NCBI GenBank assembly: GCA_024635755.1
Contig: JAGXIF010000024.1
Location: 1 to 64,000, forward strand
From: Halothiobacillus sp.
GTDB lineage: Bacteria > Pseudomonadota > Gammaproteobacteria > Halothiobacillales > Halothiobacillaceae
DNA length: 64,000 nucleotides
Direction of reading: 5' to 3'
Shown: positions 27,982 through 32,005 of the stretch, in pieces
How positions within the stretch are numbered: the first letter of the stretch is position 1
How the letters are laid out: the number at the start of each line of letters is the position of its first letter
Notes under the pieces: model-generated
Seen by the model: only the letters and a program-made list of their open reading frames with translations
Database searches by the model: none
Told to the model about the DNA's origin: nothing
Made by a program: the position numbers and the translations under genes

Positions 27982-30206
<2,225 letters not shown>

Positions 30207-30344
30207 GGCCGGCGCAGTCTACCCCGGCCCGGCGGGACAGGCCACCGGTCCCGCACGGCGAGCAACGTCGACCGGCAGACATGCTTTGAGCGGACACGAC
30301 GAAAGCCCCTGACGAAATCAGCGGTGTCATTGGAAAACGGCGGA

Positions 30345-30900
30345 GATTAGAGAGAAGGGAGGGCCTTCCTGGCCTGGAACAGATCCGATCGAGTGGTTCG
30401 AATCCTGGCGCAAGTCCTTGCGCTCAATCGTGCGTCCCGGTCCATGGGCGGGCTTGCGGCGAGTGCTTTTCCATAAGACAAGGCAGTGTCCGTTGCCGGT
30501 CCTGTTGCTTCTTAGCTCGCCTGCGGCCTTCCTGCGGTTTGCTTGTTGTTGCCGGTGATTGCCACCGATCTTTCGATGCGTCCCGCATCGTTCTGATGCC
30601 TTCCCTAGCAGCGCCCGTCCCTGAGCGCTCGGCGATCCTGTGATCGAGCTCGGCGTCCATGCCGATCGCGCCACTGCCTCCGTGGCGGTCCGCAAAAAAC
30701 CTGAACTCAATCCCGAGTGCCGGTTGTTTACGGTGCGCATCCCTTAACCTAGCGCCGTGCGCGTGCCGGTCGAAGCCGACAACCCGATCACTGGCAGATC
30801 CTCTGCCGTTTGCTTCCTGCGTGGACTTCCTTGCCCGCCAGTACGATCCGTCGGCCATCCTGGCCAGTGGGCTTCCTGCCCTTGTGCATCCGAGCACGGG
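30345..30900 (-). ncRNA. Candidate CsrB/RsmZ-type small RNA that sequesters CsrA/RsmA
   Basis: This stretch has no credible protein gene, and its minus strand is saturated with CsrA-binding signals. Between 30361 and 30960 I counted 27 GGA triplets on the minus strand against 4 on the plus strand. Many sit in loops of short perfect hairpins: GGGC-AGGAA-GCCC (30869-30881), GGCC-AGGAT-GGCC (30853-30865), GGCAGA-GGA-TCTGCC (30793-30807), CGATGCG-GGA-CGCATCG (30574-30590), GCGCAAG-GA-CTTGCGC (30408-30423), GGCC-AGGAA-GGCC (30362-30374). This is the architecture of CsrB, CsrC and RsmX/Y/Z RNAs, which titrate the translational repressor CsrA. At roughly 500-550 nucleotides it would be long for the class. 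A T6 run at 30693-30698 could split it into two RNAs. Ends are approximate: no clear -10 was found, and the 3' end may be the last GGCC hairpin followed by a CTCCCTTCTCTCT tract. Confidence 0.72.
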
Positions 30901-30971
30901 ACACATATTGCGCCTTTCGGATCGAGGCGAACAGACGAAAAAGCAAAAGGTTCCGTAGGAAATGTCGCTTT

Positions 30972-30997
30972 GTCTTGTAGGAATTTTCCTACAAGAC
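30972..30997. promoter_or_regulatory. Perfect palindrome resembling a GacA/UvrY upstream activating sequence
   Basis: A 12-base arm (GTCTTGTAGGAA), two-base centre (TT) and its exact complement. The core at 30976-30993, TGTAGG-N6-CCTACA, differs from the GacA consensus TGTAAG-N6-CTTACA by one symmetrical base per half. It lies about 95 bases upstream of the first GGA hairpin. A smaller TTCC-GTA-GGAA repeat is at 30952-30962. It could otherwise be a site for another LuxR/NarL-type regulator. Confidence 0.6.
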
Positions 30998-31025
30998 GGG
31001 GCGGACGCCCCGGACAGAGGAGGGG

Positions 31026-31844
31026 TCAACGGATCGGCTGGGCGGTAACTTCCTCACAGCCGTGGGCAAAAAAGCGGGCAACTGCGGCGAGAAACCCCGG
31101 CGTATCCTCGATATGCGGCCAGTGACGCGCCCGCTCGAGGGTGACGATGCAGCTCTGGGGGAAGTCGCGGGCAATCCGCTCCTCGTCGCCGGGCTCGATA
31201 TAGGCCGATTGCGCGCCGCGCACGAACAGCGCCGGCCCCAGGTAGAAGCCCGCCAGTGACGGCATGTCGGAGGTCTGCTCGTAGGCCGCCTTGAGCACGG
31301 GCAGATTGAACCGCCAGCGCCACTTGCCACCACTCCGCTCGAGGTTGGCGGCCAGAAACGCGCGCACCTCGGGTTCGAACACGTGGGCCGCCATCTGCTG
31401 ACGGGCATGGTCGCGCGATTCGAGCGTGTCCAGATCGACCGCATCCAGCGCGGCGAACACGTCCTGGTGCCAGGGCGGATACCATTTCGGCGCGATATCC
31501 ACGACCACCAGCCGCGCCACCCGCTCGGGGTAACGATCGGCCAGCACCATACCCAGTTTCCCGCCCAGGGAATGACCGATCAAATGCGCGCGCTCGATAC
31601 CGAGGCGATCCATCAGCGCGAGGACGTCGTCGGCCATCGCCTCGTAGCTCAACTCGCAGGCGTGCGGCGATCGGCCGTGATTGCGCAGATCCACATTGAT
31701 CACCCGGTAGTTCGCGCTCAACGACTGGGCAATGCCGCGCCAGTTCGAGAGCGAGCCGAACAGGCCATGCATGATGATCACCGGCAGGCCGCCACCGCGC
31801 TCCTCATAGTGCAGGTCAACCGCCGCGTTTTCGTTCGTCGTCAT
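31026..31844 (-). CDS. Alpha/beta hydrolase (YbfF-like esterase)
   Basis: 272 residues from ATG 31844 (MTTNENAAVDLHYEERGGG); 23 further in-frame codons upstream look non-coding. Alpha/beta fold: oxyanion motif IIMHGLFGSLSNW (about 23-35), nucleophile elbow GHSLGG with S92, acid and histidine near the C-terminus (RARHWPHIEDTPGF). The pattern DLRNHGRSPH is typical of the acyl-CoA/ester hydrolase YbfF group. No signal peptide. It is immediately upstream of the GGA-rich RNA region on the same strand. The substrate cannot be predicted. Confidence 0.85.
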   Translation of the reverse strand: MTTNENAAVDLHYEERGGGLPVIIMHGLFGSLSNWRGIAQSLSANYRVINVDLRNHGRSPHACELSYEAMADDVLALMDRLGIERAHLIGHSLGGKLGMVLADRYPERVARLVVVDIAPKWYPPWHQDVFAALDAVDLDTLESRDHARQQMAAHVFEPEVRAFLAANLERSGGKWRWRFNLPVLKAAYEQTSDMPSLAGFYLGPALFVRGAQSAYIEPGDEERIARDFPQSCIVTLERARHWPHIEDTPGFLAAVARFFAHGCEEVTAQPIR

Positions 31845-32005
31845 GTCAAAGGATTCCGTTGGAATGGGGCCGGTCGCCGGTCGGTGAGACGGGCGGGCCG
31901 CGAGTCTGGTCATGAGATACTACCAAACTGCGCATCCCCCGGCCGAGATCGAGCCGCGCCGCCACGACCCACTAGCCCCGCTCTCAAGCATCACAAGGTG
32001 CCTGC

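Follow-up and report, generated by a model that had tools for sequence, protein, structure and literature searches.

A predicted CsrB/RsmZ-type RNA behind a GacA-type box between a hydrolase gene and queA in Halothiobacillaceae

The window, that is, the whole 64,000-nucleotide (64-kb) stretch of DNA analyzed here, comes from a genome that appears to be Guyparkeria or close to it, in the family Halothiobacillaceae. Between a gene for an alpha/beta hydrolase and queA, both on the minus strand, the intergenic region carries a palindromic box followed on the same strand by a long array of GGA hairpins. The features of the locus are listed in Table 1.

Table 1. Features of the hydrolase-queA region and of a second group of GacA-type palindromes in Guyparkeria
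Feature	Position	Strand	Basis or remark
Alpha/beta hydrolase gene, upstream neighbour	31029..31913	minus	Pfam PF00561
GacA/UvrY-type box TGTAGGAAAATTCCTACA, 18-bp perfect palindrome	30976..30993	minus	presumed upstream activating site
Second, half box TTCCTACGGAA	30951..30961	minus	conserved; about 14 bp downstream of the palindrome
Possible -10 element AATATG	30904..30909	minus	position conserved in alignments; adjoins first hairpin
Predicted CsrB-type small RNA	30301..30900	minus	GGA and hairpin excess; GGA and stem conservation; syntenic array in relatives
First GGA hairpin, GUGC-UCGGAU-GCAC	30884..30897	minus	stem invariant in 10 of 10; similar hairpin in same place in second genus
Second GGA hairpin, GGGC-AGGAA-GCCC	30869..30881	minus	stem invariant in 10 of 10; similar in second genus
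Long stem presenting CUC-GGGAUU-GAG, T6 run in 3' arm	30690..30733	minus	RNAalifold pairs in 10 of 10, with wobble exchanges
Last GGA hairpin, GGCC-AGGAA-GGCC, then pyrimidine tract	30362..30374	minus	stem invariant in 10 of 10; possible proximal 3' end
Terminator-like hairpin before CTTTCG	30301..30326	minus	alignment and folds; possible distal 3' end
queA, downstream neighbour	29127..30206	minus	Pfam PF02547
ComEA-side palindromes	L024 1501-1518; L025; L222; L223 397-414; L224 589-606	minus in L222	

The minus strand of positions 30361-30960 contains 27 GGA triplets, as counted in the initial annotation, versus 5 on the plus strand, for which that annotation had given 4. This is the highest GGA count among 600-base segments on both strands of the 64 kb (mean, 8.1; standard deviation, 3.2), and the only other site with at least 22 GGA in the window is coding sequence at about 59.5 to 60.3 kb. 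A GGA was scored as presented by a hairpin when it lay in a loop of no more than 9 nt closed by a stem of 4 pairs or more. In 30330-30960 (minus strand), 15 of the 27 GGA triplets were in such loops, compared with 2.75 ± 1.6 (maximum, 8) in 500 dinucleotide-preserving shuffles. For the minus strand of 30345-30900 the count was 15 of 26 (shuffles, 2.4 ± 1.6; maximum, 8), and the antisense strand of this region had 1 GGA hairpin. The identical script, applied to E. coli CsrB as a positive control, placed 9 of its 22 GGA triplets in hairpins (shuffles, 1.3; maximum, 5). The array of GGA hairpins proposed earlier, with at least six GGA in loops, is thus confirmed far above the shuffled background, and 30345-30900 carries, in its hairpin loops, the numerous A(N)GGA motifs that mark the CsrB/RsmZ class. 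The folding energy of the whole region was not unusual relative to shuffles (z = -0.77), which counts against a sponge RNA. Since total stability is ordinary, the signal lies in where the GGA triplets sit.

The palindrome upstream of the array reads TGTAGG-N6-CCTACA and is laid out like the GacA/UvrY box, whose published consensus is TGTAAGN6CTTACA (as quoted in PMC3171408). A box of this type upstream is a further mark of the CsrB/RsmZ class, and the palindrome, which is absent from the initial annotation, is the strongest evidence for a CsrA sponge at this locus. It is the sole TGTARG-N6-CYTACA site in the window's genome and is identical in all 10 Guyparkeria genomes holding the locus; the reversed control pattern occurred in 0 of 11 genomes. 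At the equivalent place, genome G022 has TGTAAGAAAATTCTTACA, an exact canonical TGTAAG-N6-CTTACA, and genomes G024 and G019 have intermediate forms. The core of the half box, TCCTACG, is invariant in 10 sequences, and the arrangement of palindrome plus half box recurs at a further GacA-type promoter of the genus. An exact-box scan covered about 85,000 species' genomes. Among the matches listed, most exact boxes outside the family were not followed by GGA-rich DNA, indicating that the palindrome alone is not diagnostic.

The first GGA hairpin starts about 80 bp downstream of the palindrome, and transcription likely begins near position 30900. At the place of the possible -10 element, relatives carry CATCAT or CATGAT. 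A sigma-70 consensus scan of the region found no good promoter, which counts against the sponge reading, and the -10 element is graded weak for lack of a consensus match.

In nine further Guyparkeria genomes, the RNA aligns at 71 to 92% identity. The palindrome and the GGA array stand upstream of queA in 10 of the 10 genomes holding the locus, and the single Guyparkeria genome without an RNA match is 64% complete and also lacks queA. GGA is the best kept of the common triplets, being retained at 79% in the nine relatives versus a mean of 49% over all triplets, a retention matched in 0 of 20,000 resamples. In ten related sequences, the 17 GGA-presenting stems were 97.9% paired, with a structure derived partly from the consensus, and 6 stem pairs had changed on both sides, versus 2.5 in shuffles and 0 to 1 in slid controls. 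According to the initial annotation, loss of the GGA hairpins in close relatives or a conserved reading frame would speak against an RNA of this kind. The opposite of the former was seen, since the triplets and their stems are preferentially kept, and frame-breaking indels leave no conserved frame.

Long open frames do occur in this G+C-rich sequence, and a protein-coding gene could be sought in a minus-strand frame of 201 codons (30424-31029) or one of 137 codons (30327-30740). The indels between relatives are mostly not multiples of three, as are 4 of the 5 that separate the window's sequence from a 92% identical copy, the frames shift in length and phase in every relative, and conservation follows the GGA triplets and the stems instead. 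A coding gene in the gap is extremely improbable; the region is intergenic and noncoding, as expected of the CsrB/RsmZ class.

In the RNA region of one species (G013, sequence L021, 1731-1812), a 17-nt unit that includes a CsrA-type site, GTGACCAGGGATGACCT, is present in 4.8 tandem copies. These repeats may reflect growth of the sponge by tandem duplication.

The predicted RNA would measure about 600 nt with its 3' end at the distal terminator-like hairpin, or about 550 nt with that end just past the last GGA hairpin. An earlier size estimate of 500 to 550 nt for a CsrA sponge is retained as to the kind of RNA and revised upward as to its extent, which may reach about 30301, beyond 30345. The distal terminator is weak in the window's genome, a point against the sponge reading, and strong in most Guyparkeria relatives, where it has the form CACCC...GGGTGTTTTTT. 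A terminator consensus scan gave two terminator-like matches, both on the other strand and inside GGA hairpins.

A T6 run inside the array, which the initial annotation placed at 30693-30698 and which lies at 30694-30699, had suggested that the array is divided here into two tandem RNAs, each binding CsrA. Supporting this, a short stem (CTC-GGGATT-GAG) precedes the run, and Gammaproteobacteria commonly have two or three separate sponges. However, the U-run pairs with an upstream AAACAA in a conserved extended stem, found in 10 of 10 sequences with wobble exchanges; sequence L008 carries GGTTGTTTG there, so that the U-run is broken; and only one GacA-type box is present, before the first half. 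As the T6 run lies within the 3' arm of a long stem that is conserved, one RNA is likelier than two, and the tandem arrangement is considered very unlikely.

Comparison of the hydrolase-queA locus in relatives, as proposed at the outset, showed that the box, the array, and the gene neighbourhood recur beyond Guyparkeria. The box and GGA array are present in 3 of the 4 genera of Halothiobacillaceae. In the second genus (g4), a box is followed by 17 to 33 sense GGA triplets, versus 2 to 5 antisense, upstream of queA in 10 of 10 examined genomes, and the hydrolase gene lies upstream of the array where viewed closely; one of the boxes in this genus is exactly canonical. For the third genus (g2), one genome (G011) has a box and 24 GGA triplets (8 antisense) upstream of queA. 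In the fourth genus (g3), where seen, queA is preceded by an unrelated gene and a tRNA-like sequence. The RNA sequence of the second genus is almost entirely unlike that of Guyparkeria, and a blastn comparison across genera at a word size of 7 bases matched nothing beyond the promoter region and short words from GGA hairpins. On visual inspection, the first hairpins match up between genera, as does the last hairpin, GGCC-GGA-GGCC; in most copies of the second genus this last hairpin reads GGCC-(AC)AGGAU-GGC(C), in several followed by TTTT.

The location of the array upstream of queA and on the same strand in three genera would also fit a long CsrA-binding 5' leader of queA, acting in cis and not as a free small RNA. 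Yet in most Guyparkeria copies the strong terminator precedes queA by a good distance, another strong terminator follows the G011 copy, about 200 bp of extra sequence separates array and queA in G017, and the number of GGA triplets is far above the needs of one leader. Such a leader is very improbable indeed. A functionless compositional accident, for which the purine-rich strand and an overall stability not above that of shuffles could be cited, is already contradicted by the comparative data: the GGA triplets and stems are selectively conserved, the box is present, and the array recurs at the equivalent place in genera whose sequences have diverged. Its probability is negligible.

The window's genome has one csrA gene, and the encoded protein keeps L4 and R44, which are critical RNA-binding residues of CsrA (PMC7652899). 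It also has one full-length receiver-LuxR regulator of the GacA type, 39% identical to UvrY, whose gene adjoins uvrC, and E. coli has a matching uvrY-uvrC neighbourhood. A host CsrA with its RNA-binding residues and a GacA, both associated with the CsrB/RsmZ class, are thus present. No sCache_4 (PF09984) kinase scored over the cut-off in the genus, and a weak match in G000 is a Ser/Thr-kinase-like protein. In the window's genome, BarA is matched best by a PAS-domain hybrid kinase, but its C-terminal Hpt region has no match there. No clear BarA/GacS sensor was found in the genus by sCache_4 and BarA homology, with G009 and G003 included; this, the chief gap in the predicted circuit, counts against the sponge reading.

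No Rfam family reached its gathering cut-off in the window or the nine relatives, as the initial annotation had anticipated in writing that family searches could miss the RNA; this result is also counted against a sponge. The RNA scored below the cut-offs of the CsrB, CsrC, PrrB_RsmZ, RsmY, and related models; for the Pseudomonas families PrrB_RsmZ and RsmY the matches were weak (16.7 bits versus a cut-off of 44, the best score, and 11.7 versus 57). A plasmid search for the RNA gave no match, and in the searched part of the open-access literature no paper paired these organisms with CsrB or a small RNA.

Like E. coli CsrB (RF00018) and CsrC, the present RNA is intergenic, has dense GGA in short hairpin loops, and has a presumed UvrY/GacA-type activation site, but no sequence or covariance-model match to them is detectable. 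CsrB has 22 GGA triplets in 369 nt and binds about 18 CsrA subunits per RNA (PMC7652899). The present RNA is about 1.5 times longer and lies between the hydrolase gene and queA, whereas CsrB lies between yqcC and syd. Pseudomonas RsmX/Y/Z also have GGA hairpins behind a GacA box, but the PrrB_RsmZ (RF00166) and RsmY (RF00195) families are modelled at 121 to 133 nt, compared with about 550 to 600 nt and 26 GGA triplets here. The predicted RNA is larger than both RsmX/Y/Z and E. coli CsrB, as first proposed. Pf1 of Pseudoalteromonas is a lineage-specific CsrB-family RNA with 21 GGA triplets and a GacA-like box; its sequence resembles that of E. coli CsrB only slightly, and it acts through CsrA (PMC9927453). 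It differs from the present RNA in lineage and sequence, and its CsrA function was tested in the laboratory, whereas the present RNA is predicted from sequence. Shewanella CsrB1 and CsrB2 were predicted from GGA density and a TGTAAGN6CTTACA box and later seen on Northern blots (PMC3171408); Shewanella has two copies, and one was found in the present genome. The Halothiobacillaceae RNA is uncatalogued and large. As the CsrB/RsmZ design and lineage-specific members of low similarity are already known, it stands out only by its length and its rapid divergence.

With a probability of roughly 0.93, the hydrolase-queA gap would encode one CsrB/RsmZ-type CsrA sponge of about 550 to 600 nt that is activated by GacA. 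The CsrA sponge proposed in the initial annotation gains support from the box, synteny across the family, conservation of GGA and stems, the lack of a conserved frame, and the finding of single csrA and gacA-uvrC loci in the genome. In the predicted mechanism, phosphorylated GacA (UvrY) would bind the palindrome and switch on minus-strand transcription from about 30900. The RNA would fold into a string of about 15 to 17 small hairpins with A(N)GGA exposed in their loops, and these loops would bind many dimers of CsrA, a global regulator, and remove it from its target mRNAs, so that production of the RNA would relieve CsrA regulation. By analogy with CsrB, active GacA should lead to titration of CsrA by the RNA.

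Other GacA-type sites occur in these genomes. In G011 (sequence L023, about 1501-1518), a box, TGTAGGAAAAATCCTACA, near a gene for a LuxR-type response regulator has no adjoining GGA-rich DNA, and autoregulation is possible. In 5 Guyparkeria genomes, a second GacA-type palindrome with a downstream half box is located about 120 bp before a gene for a ComEA-like helix-hairpin-helix protein of 91 to 92 amino acids, which in L024 is followed by a pilin-like gene. The arrangement was not found in the window's genome, where the best ComEA-like match is 41% identical. From the position of these boxes, GacA may directly control a competence-type gene in the five genomes.

A broader view, which is tentative and somewhat doubtful, is that Halothiobacillaceae have a CsrB family of their own, unusually long and so fast diverging that between genera only the promoter, the terminal hairpins, and the GGA-loop design survive. 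In this family, one species would have partly rebuilt the RNA from tandem 17-nt binding-site units, GacA would work without a recognisable GacS, and the same GacA would also act on the ComEA-like gene in several Guyparkeria species. The predicted RNA would bring a Csr sponge to a bacterial family that fixes carbon and oxidises sulfur, and the set of loci could serve as a covariance-model seed for an uncatalogued RNA family. It would also show clearly how an RNA can keep its function by way of its promoter and the density of its binding sites despite turnover of the sequence, and it raises the questions of what CsrA controls in autotrophic bacteria and which kinase acts on GacA in them.

Among the matches listed in the exact-box scan, GGA-rich stretches near an exact box were also seen outside the family in L115, L140 (the Solemya velum symbiont), L142, L154, and L117. 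Judged by box and GGA content, these stretches are candidates for other uncatalogued sponges.
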